A DNA stretch of 26,579 bases from a virus, in the IMG/VR virus record IMGVR_UViG_3300009467_000058, positions 1-26,579 of that record; one strand, written 5' to 3'. A program made the translations under genes and the position numbers. Under the pieces are notes generated by a model that ran no database searches, had not been told where the DNA came from, and saw nothing but the letters and a program-made list of their open reading frames with translations. This document shows, piece after piece, positions 3,524 to 6,656 of this stretch. Each line of letters starts with the position of its first letter. Within the stretch, counting starts at the first letter, position 1.

Positions 3524-3638
3524 CTCTTAAACATAGTAGGGGTCTGGCATCAAGCCAGGCCCTTTTTAGTTACTCTTAAACATAGTAGGGGTGAAATGGC
3601 ACTCTTAAACATAGTACCCCCTTAAACATAGTAGGGGT
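3524..3638 (+). repeat. Four copies of CTTAAACATAGTA element
   Basis: Core CTTAAACATAGTA begins at 3526, 3575, 3604 and 3621. Copies 1 and 2 share 20 bases (CTCTTAAACATAGTAGGGGT at 3524 and 3573). Copies 3 and 4 are 17 bases apart, and their ACCCC and GGGGT can pair across the fourth core. One 12/13 match and a related copy occur downstream of the tube gene at 19614 and 19629, also next to a terminator. The role is unknown; a binding site for a phage protein or an RNA element are possible. Confidence 0.8.
3538..3567 (+). terminator. Intrinsic terminator after terL
   Basis: GGGTCTGGC (3540-3548) pairs with GCCAGGCCC (3554-3562), 9 bp with one G-T wobble and a 5-base loop, followed by TTTTT. 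It would end transcription of the terminase transcript. The 5' arm overlaps the GGGG tail of the first CTTAAACATAGTA copy. Confidence 0.82.
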
Positions 3639-3652
3639 CAGACCTGTCCCAA

Positions 3653-3682
3653 GCCCAGTACCTTGCAATGCCCAGTACCTTG
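3653..3682 (+). repeat. 13-bp direct repeat, 17-bp spacing
   Basis: GCCCAGTACCTTG at 3653-3665 and again at 3670-3682. The spacing equals that of the 3495/3512 and 3604/3621 pairs although the sequences differ. Confidence 0.8.
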
Positions 3683-3983: not shown

Positions 3984-4017
3984 TTTGCTTGTGGGTTCAA
4001 AAAATTGATTACCTTTG
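3984..4017 (+). promoter_or_regulatory. Bacteroidota-type promoter of the GP88 cassette
   Basis: The -7 element TACCTTTG (4010-4017) is an exact match to TAnnTTTG. A -33 TTTG lies at 3984-3987 (22-base gap) and an alternative TTG at 3989-3991 (18-base gap); either is close to the usual spacing. Transcription would start near 4023, about 25 bases before the first small ORF. This is the host-type consensus and differs from the motif found before the phage's own modules. Confidence 0.72.
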
Positions 4018-4047
4018 GTTTATCATTAACATTAAAACAAATAAAAA

Positions 4048-4143
4048 ATGGAAATTTCAAGTTTACAGTTAATTTATGGCCTTATCGGATCCGCTCTAAT
4101 TGTGGTCTTTTCAATTACTTTTGTTAACCTTAAAAAACAATAA
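4048..4143 (+). CDS. Single-pass small membrane protein, 31 aa
   Basis: First ORF behind the cassette promoter. After a short polar start (MEISSLQ) comes one hydrophobic stretch (LIYGLIGSALIVVFSITFVN) long enough to span the membrane, ending in LKKQ. The basic end suggests the C-terminus stays in the cytoplasm. It stops one base before the ATG of the GP88-like gene, so the two are probably translated together. The clear promoter, lack of upstream competing ORFs and good membrane pattern support it as real. Function unknown; a small holin-like or membrane-docking protein are both possible. Confidence 0.55.
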   Translation: MEISSLQLIYGLIGSALIVVFSITFVNLKKQ

Positions 4144-4144
4144 T

Positions 4145-4888
4145 ATGAAAACAGTAATAAAAAAAGAAACAAAAAAAGCCGTGCAAAGGTTATTAAGTGA
4201 CGGTAAGACCAACGCAAAGACCACAAAAAACAGTCTAAAAACTTTTATTTTGTACTTGACGCCTGGCACAGTAGGTACCAAAAATATGTGTCCTATGGCC
4301 TCGGCTGGCTGCTTGCAAGCTTGTTTATATACTGCTGGATTTGCTGGCGTATATAAAAGCGTGAATGCTGCCAGGCTTAGAAAAACCGAATTTTTTATAG
4401 CTGACAAAAAAGCTTTTATACTGCAGCTATCTTACGAGATAATGAAGCAATATGTAAAGGCCAAAAAAGGCGGCTATAAAATTGCATTCAGGTTGAACGG
4501 CACCAGTGATTTAGATTTTATTTTTATGCTGCAAAAATACGCAAATTTAGATATTAGCAGCTTATCCGATCACGCTACCTTTTACGACTATACGAAATTG
4601 CTATCTAAAGCAATAAGATATAAAGACCATAAAAACTATACCGTAACCTTTAGCCGATCCGAAACAAATCAAGCCGAAACCGATCAAGCTATAAAATTAG
4701 GTATTAATGTTGCGGCTGTCTTTAGTGATGATCTACCACAAAGGTACAAAGGTGCTGTAGTTGTTGACGGGGATAAAAGTGATCTTGTTATGTTATATAA
4801 CAAAGGCGTAATTTTAGGCCTTAAGGCCAAAGGAAAAGCCAAAAAAGATAAAAGCGGCTTTGTAATAAATACAGCCCTACCATTTTAA
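4145..4888 (+). CDS. GP88-like protein with C-x6-C-x3-C motif, 247 aa
   Basis: Resembles the phage GP88 (mycobacteriophage gene product 88) family. After a basic N-terminus come FILYLTPG (34-41) and the cysteine motif C49-x6-C56-x3-C60. Further blocks are FRLNGTSDLDF (115-125), FYDYTK (146-151), TVTFSRSETN (166-175), VAAVFSD (189-195), VVVDGDKSD (205-213) and a Gly/Lys-rich end (GLKAKGKAKKDKSGF). The repeating strand-helix pattern suggests a TIM-barrel-like fold; the N-terminal cysteines could bind a metal or Fe-S cluster, as in radical-SAM-like enzymes. That reading is inference; the family's function is, as far as I know, not established. ATG4145 is preferred to ATG4100, which lies inside the upstream small ORF. 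Lysine is mostly AAA here but often AAG in nearby phage genes, a sign of separate origin. Confidence 0.72.
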   Translation: MKTVIKKETKKAVQRLLSDGKTNAKTTKNSLKTFILYLTPGTVGTKNMCPMASAGCLQACLYTAGFAGVYKSVNAARLRKTEFFIADKKAFILQLSYEIMKQYVKAKKGGYKIAFRLNGTSDLDFIFMLQKYANLDISSLSDHATFYDYTKLLSKAIRYKDHKNYTVTFSRSETNQAETDQAIKLGINVAAVFSDDLPQRYKGAVVVDGDKSDLVMLYNKGVILGLKAKGKAKKDKSGFVINTALPF

Positions 4889-4909
4889 TTAACCTATAAA
4901 AATAAAATT

Positions 4910-5080
4910 ATGCAATTATTCAAATTTGTTTTAATCTACAGCGACGGCAACAAAGCTACATATTTTAGGGCTTGCAAATATCCTAAAAAAACTGCTATAT
5001 ATAGAAAAGCATTTGAGCTGTTAAACAGCGAAAAAATTACCCGCTTTAGTTATGGCCCCTTTATACTTAATAAACTTTAA
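4910..5080 (+). CDS. Hypothetical small protein, 56 aa
   Basis: Begins 21 bases after the GP88-like gene in the same cassette. It reads as strand-strand-helix-strand: FKFVLIYSDGNKATYFRA, then a helix (TAIYRKAFELLNSEKI) and FSYGPFILN. This is the look of a small folded alpha/beta domain, not a random ORF. No cysteine pair or membrane segment. Not recognised; its conserved linkage to GP88-like genes would be worth testing. Confidence 0.55.
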   Translation: MQLFKFVLIYSDGNKATYFRACKYPKKTAIYRKAFELLNSEKITRFSYGPFILNKL

Positions 5081-5090
5081 AAATACAGAT

Positions 5091-5285
5091 ATGACAATTA
5101 TAAGCAAACTTAAACAGCTCCCAATTAAGGACAGATATAAGATCACAAAAAGCCCTAAAGGCTTTGTGATCCTGGATAAGGAAAATAAATATATATTAAC
5201 CGACGATCTAAACAGATATAAAAGTATATATATAAATGACGGCGGCTGCTTTGGCTGTATAGAAACAATAAAAAAAGAATTATAA
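5091..5285 (+). CDS. Hypothetical small protein, 64 aa
   Basis: Start taken at ATG5091, 10 bases after the previous stop, not at ATG5052, which lies inside that gene. The sequence has a leading helix (TIISKLKQLP), a strand pair (YKITKSPKGFVILDKENKYIL) and an end segment DDLNRYKSIYINDGGCFGCI with C-x2-C (CFGC). The single C-x2-C is too little to claim zinc binding. The following gene begins 2 bases after its stop. Not recognised. Confidence 0.55.
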   Translation: MTIISKLKQLPIKDRYKITKSPKGFVILDKENKYILTDDLNRYKSIYINDGGCFGCIETIKKEL

Positions 5286-5287
5286 CT

Positions 5288-5440
5288 ATGGAAAAGAAAA
5301 GAGACAGAAGGCCGCACAATACTACTTTAAATACTTTATTTAAAGATATATTAGACAGCTATACAATTAATTGGAATGACGGCACCAGCACCACTCAAAG
5401 CCCAACAGGGGAAATAATAACCTATAAAAAACTAAAGTAA
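5288..5440 (+). CDS. Hypothetical small protein, 50 aa
   Basis: Begins 2 bases after the previous stop and ends 1 base before the next ATG, the same tight packing as the rest of the cassette. Basic start (MEKKRDRRPH), a short helix (LNTLFKDILDSY), then a Thr/Ser-rich turn and strand (TINWNDGTSTTQSPTGEIIT). No motif or family recognised. Confidence 0.5.
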   Translation: MEKKRDRRPHNTTLNTLFKDILDSYTINWNDGTSTTQSPTGEIITYKKLK

Positions 5441-5441
5441 T

Positions 5442-5600
5442 ATGTATACATTTGATCATATAATAAAGCAAATAAATCAGCTTGATGAGTACCAAAAAAA
5501 ACAGCTCGCAATTATATTAATAAGCGAAACCCTAAACCCTAAGGCAATAGATAATACTATTAAGATAGTGCAAGCTAGGAATAAAAAAGGGATGATATAA
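5442..5600 (+). CDS. Hypothetical small helical protein, 52 aa
   Basis: Last gene of the cassette, 21 bases before the terminator stem. It appears all-helical: DHIIKQINQLDEYQKKQLAI, then SETLNPKAIDNTIKIVQARN, with a basic end (KKGMI). The amphipathic helices suggest a dimer or a partner-binding peptide, which is inference only. Not recognised. Confidence 0.5.
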   Translation: MYTFDHIIKQINQLDEYQKKQLAIILISETLNPKAIDNTIKIVQARNKKGMI

Positions 5601-5623
5601 ACCCTCTTAAAATACCTTAATAT

Positions 5624-5647
5624 AGGCCCTTTATAGGGCCTTTTTTT
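5624..5647 (+). terminator. Intrinsic terminator of the GP88 cassette
   Basis: AGGCCCT (5624-5630) pairs perfectly with AGGGCCT (5635-5641) around a TTAT loop, and the last arm runs into a tract of seven T (5641-5647). Together with the promoter at 3984-4017 it makes the cassette a complete transcription unit. Confidence 0.85.
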
Positions 5648-5837: not shown

Positions 5838-6656
5838 TTAGGCCAATTGAATGATTTCATCCCCTTTTGATTTAACTAATAAATATCTTTTCTTCTGAAA
5901 TGATTTAGTGACACCATTAAAAAAAGCCCATACATTATTTTGTTTCACTCCTAACTTATCTGCAAATGATATTAAAGAGTGTCTTTCAACTGTATTTGTG
6001 TGGGTATCCAGGATTTCTTTATATGTATGTTGGTGTTGTCTGTTGGATTCTAATATGTATCTATTATATAATTTAAGACGATGTCCATTGAAGAGTCCTT
6101 CTGCTGTTTTTACGTTGCAACCTATATTTTTAACCATATCATTTTTAGACCAAGAGTGAATTTTTAGAGTCTTTAGATCTAATATATTTATAGGAACATC
6201 TCTGTAAAATAATTGTTTGTTGTATTTAGGCTTATATTTTACTATGTATTTCTTTTCATACTCATCAAGCAGCTCCTCAGAGCTGATTGCTACATAATAA
6301 GCAGAGTCAAAATCTTTATCTTTTATGTGGGAATTTATTCTCCCTAAGATTCCATTATTACTTTTACCTACATATACTAAATTATCATCATTTACAAGGA
6401 AGTATATAAAACAATTTCTGTTTCTTCTGGTCTCTTCTATTACAGCCTCTATAGTAACTTGTTTATACGAATCTGTGCTAAAGTTGGGTCTGTGAACATC
6501 CTTAATGGCTTTGGCCATTTCGGATGTTATACCGCTTCTTATAATATTTCTTCTTTTGTTATTATTATTTATACATTTCTTACAGTTGCCTTTGATGTAC
6601 CTCTCTGTAACTTCGTCACAGTTCTTACAATACTTGTCTGGATATTTTGATTTCAT
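5838..6656 (-). CDS. Free-standing GIY-YIG homing endonuclease with zinc finger, 272 aa
   Basis: Only clear minus-strand gene of the window. Residues 10-28 carry C10-x2-C13-x11-C25-x2-C28, a likely zinc finger. The GIY-YIG nuclease follows: FIYFL at 83-87 replaces GIY, YVG at 95-97 is YIG, with R106, H110, E134 and N146 as expected catalytic-site residues. The C-terminal half has two similar DNA-binding segments (about 155-205 and 215-267), both with the pattern of a short strand, a helix-turn-helix and a final basic strand, as in NUMOD-type repeats. Such enzymes nick or cut a target and copy themselves into homologous phage DNA. It sits between the moron cassette and the tail module and has its own promoter. 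I saw no intron core around it. Confidence 0.88.
   Translation of the reverse strand: MKSKYPDKYCKNCDEVTERYIKGNCKKCINNNNKRRNIIRSGITSEMAKAIKDVHRPNFSTDSYKQVTIEAVIEETRRNRNCFIYFLVNDDNLVYVGKSNNGILGRINSHIKDKDFDSAYYVAISSEELLDEYEKKYIVKYKPKYNKQLFYRDVPINILDLKTLKIHSWSKNDMVKNIGCNVKTAEGLFNGHRLKLYNRYILESNRQHQHTYKEILDTHTNTVERHSLISFADKLGVKQNNVWAFFNGVTKSFQKKRYLLVKSKGDEIIQLA

Follow-up and report, generated by a model that had tools for sequence, protein, structure and literature searches.

GP88, a candidate radical SAM-like Fe-S enzyme carried in an exchangeable accessory unit of a viral contig

What might a phage gain from a short run of genes that is placed between its terminase and tail genes and whose largest member belongs to the GP88 family? 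The window analysed here, i.e., the whole stretch of 26,579 bases from an IMG/VR virus record, raises this question. Its terminase is nearest to those of Nonlabens phages P12024L/S (~50% identity), and for this reason the window is most likely the contig of a marine flavobacterial siphophage, for which no DNA-level match was found in the annotated phage collection. As an answer, we put forward that GP88 is a divergent radical SAM-like Fe-S enzyme in a host promoter-driven accessory unit for takeover or counter-defence, a reading whose chances we judge to be evenly balanced.

A delimited unit with exchangeable content

Relatives of the window were retrieved by way of GP88, the tail protein, and the terminase, after which the terminase-tail slot was mapped in each, with the terminases of the close relatives having 97-99% identity. 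The GP88 unit (~3984-5647) runs from a promoter through a 31-aa peptide, GP88, and four small ORFs to a terminator (Table 1). Directly beyond this terminator, on the minus strand, there is a GIY-YIG endonuclease (5838-6656) that is common to the related contig L004 and has distant versions in L007 and L228, and a different putative endonuclease gene occupies this place in L157. Separately, at the terminase start in L007, a 194-aa putative homing-endonuclease-like ORF is found (1657-2241), and the first terminase codons seem displaced.

Table 1. Features of the GP88 unit and its upstream region in the window, and the GP88 replacements in related loci
Feature	Position	Strand	dN/dS	Occurrence or remark
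TTAAACATAGTA repeats, four, three with full TTAAACATAGTAGGGGT	3526..3638	+		just 3' of terminase, upstream of unit
Bacteroidetes-type promoter, TTG...TACCTTTG	3985..4017	+		recurs in 18/22 related loci
31-aa hydrophobic (membrane) peptide, first gene	4048..4143	+		homologues in L003, L215, L157
GP88 (PF17338), 247 aa, radical SAM-like Fe-S enzyme candidate	4145..4888	+	0.04-0.18
56-aa ORF	4910..5080	+	0.16-0.36	homologues in L002, L007, L215
64-aa ORF, most conserved small member, alpha/beta fold	5091..5285	+	0.07-0.28	19 homologues
50-aa ORF	5288..5440	+	0.19-0.52	homologues in L003, L157, L142
52-aa ORF	5442..5600	+	0.04-0.22	homologues in L002, L005, L211
Intrinsic terminator, AGGCCCT-TTAT-AGGGCCT-TTTTTTGT, hairpin and T-run	5624..5647	+		distance to last stop kept in 13/17 units
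GP88 replacements, behind same promoter and membrane peptide	L141:1439-2113; L142:889-1539; L143:4362-5198

At the start of the unit, the TACCTTTG box lies at 4010-4017, with TTG upstream at 3985/3989. As a pattern, TTG-N17-23-TAnnTTTG has five matches in the window against 4.5 expected by chance, and was thus rejected as evidence on its own, since it is informative only through conservation among related loci. Upstream of the unit, 18 of the 22 related loci have this same element, which forms a conserved block (TTGnTTGTGGGTTnAAAAA...TATATTTG), and 23-41 nt separate it from the first ATG in nearly all of the related units. At the other end, a perfect hairpin with a T-run is found 22-27 nt past the last stop in most of the related units, and its stems (AGGCCCT/AGGGCCT, AGCCCC/GGGGCT, and AAGCCCC/GGGGCTT) differ in sequence and still pair, so that both sides change together. 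Hence, the host-type promoter and perfect terminator that a preliminary description had claimed are both borne out among the relatives, and all six of the ORFs that it had listed (31 aa, GP88, and four of 50-64 aa) are present. The lysine codons of the unit, which had been described as mostly AAA, do differ from those of both flanks, with AAA accounting for 81% in the cassette versus 37% upstream (p=1e-8) and 58% downstream (p=4e-4).

Upstream of the promoter lies the TTAAACATAGTA repeat array, for which four matches are counted in the window (three of them at 3526-3638) against 0.15 expected. The array is kept in most relatives, as is its spacing (e.g., 46/95/124/141 or 12/39/88/105 nt after the terminase stop), and it moves together with the unit in L005/L214. 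We consider it a candidate operator, packaging, or recombination site. Both of these contigs have an insertion between the terminase and the repeat array, ahead of the unit (L005:1332-2676; L214:2292-3636). It consists of a ParB-like gene and a gene for Mom-like DNA modification (PF25680, 4e-33). A perfect 13-nt tandem pair (GCCCAGTACCTTG), whose copies are 17 nt apart from start to start, is seen between the repeat array and the promoter at 3653-3682.

GP88 and the four small ORFs are under purifying selection, with dN/dS well below 1 for each, which speaks against a noncoding region; the least clear case is the 50-aa ORF compared with L003 (0.52). The homologues of the 31-aa peptide are 31-32 aa long and hold the same place, and a hydrophobic peptide is the first gene in 17 of 19 units. 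Homologues of the 64-aa ORF come in part from units without GP88, and its family is located before or after GP88, depending on the relative. While the predicted model of the 64-aa protein has a pLDDT of 92.8, the fold comparison gave no informative match (best Z 2.5). PADLOC returned a weak chance-level row for one of the small ORFs and nothing else. Moreover, the 64- and 52-aa ORFs, the two tested, do not occur in the annotated phage collection.

More conspicuously, the 56-, 64-, 50-, and 52-aa ORFs appear in varying combinations and orders among the relatives. GP88 itself is carried by 11 of the 12 close relatives in which both slot and terminase could be read, and is replaced by unrelated proteins of 224 aa in L141, 216 aa in L142, and 278 aa in L143/L222, the only matches of which are PHROGs of unknown function. 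The 64-aa ORF is nonetheless kept without GP88 in L141, L143, and L222. Given this reassortment and persistence, we rejected the small ORFs as fixed partners of GP88. In fact, the dS of GP88 against L002, L003, L004, and L215 is 0.8-2.2, several-fold above that of the terminase and tail genes on the same contigs (0.22-0.51), which indicates that the unit has been replaced by recombination. The GP88 unit is therefore a real, well-delimited accessory transcription unit. Of the self-contained moron that had been proposed, the accessory unit stands, with its own host-type promoter and terminator, distinct composition, and exchange between phages, while the single, fixed six-gene set does not.

The GP88 family and its predicted fold

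As had been claimed, the 247-aa protein belongs to GP88, a family with no established function. It matches PF17338 over positions 6-229 of 230 (3e-38; 132 bits versus a Pfam gathering cut-off of 24.4) and PHROG 1617 (2e-61), neither of which has a function assigned. GP88 has no match in PADLOC or NCBIfam, and was thus rejected as a known defence protein. Its loci are overwhelmingly viral, numbering more than 580 in viruses versus 19 in 84,980 species genomes, and it is found in 266 phage records versus one plasmid. Carriers include Pelagibacter phages, more than 230 mycobacteriophage records, and jumbo phages. From the BFVD, A0A514K2X2 of a Nitrosopumilus spindle-shaped virus is listed as a GP88-domain protein (a weak match, E 0.02), and by this listing the family may reach archaeal viruses. 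Our literature search found no paper on the GP88 (PF17338) family, nor, in the literature searched, its fold or a relationship with DUF5131 or radical SAM enzymes. Two namesakes were set aside: the 'gp88' of cluster K phages (Waterfoul, Hammy) in the toxicity literature is a gene number, with no link to the GP88 family established, and the 'gp88' of jumbo phage FLC6 is an unrelated concanavalin-like protein.

In an alignment of 108 GP88 homologues, three cysteines are invariant in all as C-x5-9-C-x3-C, and take the form C-x6-C-x3-C at residues 49, 56, and 60 in the window. The variable first gap is a pattern that would be expected for cluster ligands in a loop. Also invariant are Arg116, Asn118, Asp122, Tyr149, Ser170, and Asp213, and the C-terminus has a conserved basic KGKAKKD. 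In L030 (2123-2245), we noticed a 41-aa ORF in which the first residues of GP88 are fused to this KGKAKKD C-terminus, as if the middle had been deleted.

The AlphaFold model of GP88 (pLDDT 90.1, pTM 0.87) has six strands (b1 32-36, b2 113-116, b3 144-150, b4 165-170, b5 189-193, and b6 223-227) with the Cys loop following the first, and so the TIM-barrel-like pattern noted earlier holds if taken to mean a partial barrel of six strands. A partial (beta/alpha)6 core of this kind, in which strand 1 leads into the cluster loop, is that of the radical SAM barrel. Foldseek gave no match to the PDB at E<0.001. With VIA-align against 1000 PDB chains, radical SAM enzymes filled the top 16 rows (Z 6.3 to 4.0), among them spore photoproduct lyase (6.3), QueE (5.8), TigE (5.6), ChlB (5.6), NifB (5.2), anSME (5.0), RlmN (4.1), and Cfr (4.0), with the best row from other TIM barrels following at 3.9. 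Since Z values below 8 may reflect a common arrangement, the highest Z of 6.3, which spans 172 residues, counts as support, short of proof.

At the sequence level, the canonical CX3CX2C is absent from all 108 homologues. Here, QueE with its CX14CX2C indicates that the Cys loop can be longer in radical SAM enzymes and that noncanonical motifs exist (PMC4389238). Direct comparison of GP88 with a classical radical SAM (PF04055-type) profile by hhalign gave a probability of 1.1%, a Pfam scan left PF04055 unmatched, and no solved homologue of either GP88 or DUF5131 was found by sequence search. With both the canonical motif and the direct profile match failing, GP88 is not filed as a radical SAM member.

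An indirect link is offered by DUF5131, for which, as for classical radical SAM proteins, profiles were built and compared with GP88. The GP88-DUF5131 alignment by hhalign covers 102 columns (probability 82.7%, below 95%; E 9.6e-6), while the controls, in which the DUF5131 profile was reversed or its columns shuffled, stay at or below 0.9%. In this alignment, the Cys loop of GP88 (NMCPMASAGCLQAC) pairs with that of DUF5131 (PTTGCTKISAGCKNC), NGTSDL with NSMSDL, and YDYTK with QILTKR. DUF5131 proteins in turn match TIGR04471, 'radical SAM mobile pair protein A', at 5e-22, under the family's own cut-off, though the DUF5131 profile has no match with the classical radical SAM profile. The DUF5131 motif C-x6-C-x2-C is absent from GP88, whose second gap is x3 throughout the alignment, and hmmscan of GP88 did not call DUF5131 (PF07505). 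A pairing with the TcmP partner gene (TIGR04474) was rejected, as this gene is absent from all 50 GP88-bearing viral records searched, many of them fragments. By profile, GP88 would thus appear to be a distant relative of DUF5131, outside its membership, and the chain from GP88 through DUF5131 to radical SAM enzymes is made up of two links of moderate strength, to which the structure adds an independent indication.

These same data allow, as a tentative possibility, that GP88 is instead a metal-binding barrel of another kind, whose cysteines bind either zinc or an Fe-S cluster with a structural role, and which serves as a hydrolase, transferase, or binding protein. The noncanonical cysteine spacing, the want of a confident PDB fold match, and the missing direct profile link would suit such a protein, whereas the exclusively radical SAM top rows above other TIM barrels, the equal relative positions of the cysteines and NxxSD in the DUF5131 alignment, and the resemblance of DUF5131 itself to a radical SAM family all argue against it. 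On model and profile comparison together, GP88 probably works like a radical SAM enzyme, outside formal superfamily membership.

Genome position and possible role

In several phages, GP88 is placed near a genome end. In Pelagibacter phage HTVC120P, it is at position 565, in the left end, before the integrase and RNA polymerase. Mesorhizobium phage Lo5R7ANS has it as gene two at the left end, and in the cluster A mycobacteriophage Kampy a single gene separates it from the right end, which matches the location of the early promoter Pleft at the right end of L5-like phages (PMC5712189). For several more matches, in phages of Pelagibacter and Roseobacter, the distance to a genome end is no more than 2 kb. 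Together with the host-type promoter in the window, these positions suggest that GP88 is expressed at the start of infection. Among 128 proteins encoded directly beside GP88 elsewhere, those with names include, once each, an anti-restriction protein, ArdC, an inhibitor of transcription like T7 0.7, and AbiJ_NTD4. No conserved functional partner was found beside GP88 across phages, and a stable neighbour was rejected given the diversity of the immediate ones. Since GP88 lies early in T7-like and cluster A phages and has anti-restriction neighbours, we infer a role in host takeover or counter-defence rather than in defence of the host. Spore photoproduct lyase acts on DNA, and QueE on a deazaguanine precursor. 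With these substrates of the two best structural neighbours and the basic KGKAKKD C-terminus in mind, our guess is that the target of GP88 would preferably be a nucleic acid or nucleotide.

Somewhat less probable than a barrel of another kind is that the unit is an ordinary moron or auxiliary metabolic set acting on host metabolism or fitness, with GP88 as a metabolic enzyme that has no part in counter-defence. A unit with its own promoter, terminator, and codon use, with freely exchanged content and alternative payloads of unknown function, is what such a set would look like. On the other hand, a virus-specific job is suggested by the rarity of GP88 outside viral contigs, its place in the early part of T7-like phage genomes, and its listing for an archaeal virus. 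That GP88 is a maturase of the adjacent small proteins, as are radical SAM enzymes on ribosomally made peptides, is highly improbable, for while its structural matches include maturases of peptides or proteins (TigE, ChlB, and anSME) and small ORFs flank it within one transcription unit, no small ORF is constant beside it, the 64-aa ORF persists without it in three relatives, and its neighbours in other phages are unrelated.

Returning to the radical SAM-like reading, the unit would be an accessory operon in a recombining slot adjoining the terminase gene, read by host RNA polymerase from the Bacteroidetes-type promoter apart from the later phage modules, with this timing being presumed and the functions of the promoter and terminator being drawn from their conservation across relatives. 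The first gene would yield a small membrane peptide, and the remaining genes would be swappable payload, of which GP88 would be the main one in the window phage and most close relatives. GP88 most likely adopts, as modelled, the radical SAM-type six-stranded partial barrel, in which a [4Fe-4S] cluster would be bound by Cys49, Cys56, and Cys60 of the loop that follows strand 1. An RxNxTSD motif where strand 2 ends would occupy the place of the SAM-binding GGEP. A candidate activity is SAM-derived radical chemistry early in infection on a nucleic acid, a nucleotide, or a host protein, a modification by which the phage might evade restriction or gain control of its host. In a broader and more doubtful form, GP88 might represent a virus-specific branch of radical SAM enzymes with a nonstandard cluster motif, expressed with the first genes in phages of many bacteria and possibly in archaeal viruses, and altering nucleic acids or a host target against host defences; in flavobacterial phages, it would be one of the interchangeable payloads of a membrane-peptide-led unit.

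Comparison with known systems

The main value of this analysis is a testable hypothesis for GP88. With a radical SAM-like assignment, a common 'hypothetical protein' of hundreds of viral contigs becomes assayable, and the cluster A mycobacteriophages are a ready genetic system for it. The unit also illustrates clearly how phages exchange the content of an expression slot that runs from promoter to terminator.

Among known families, GP88 of the window is a clear member of PF17338 (PHROG 1617). Like DUF5131 (PF07505; phage Gp37/Gp68, three-Cys-motif proteins), it has an N-terminal Cys loop followed by NxxSD and then TK, but it differs in the spacing of the third cysteine (x3 rather than x2), in a C-terminal half that is left unaligned, and in the absence of TcmP. 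With radical SAM enzymes such as spore photoproduct lyase, QueE, anSME, and RlmN, the predicted structure has in common the six-stranded partial barrel and the Cys loop after strand 1, though CX3CX2C, GGEP, and direct sequence-profile similarity are lacking. As for phage morons and accessory slots, the unit resembles these in its host-type promoter, terminator, distinct codons, swapped content, and fixed slot, and its content is accessory in that L141 and L142 lack GP88 and that the dS of GP88 exceeds that of the terminase and tail genes. Unlike morons, however, the unit has its main payload in most close relatives and the membrane peptide almost always first, and its role is possibly one of early host takeover rather than of lysogenic fitness.
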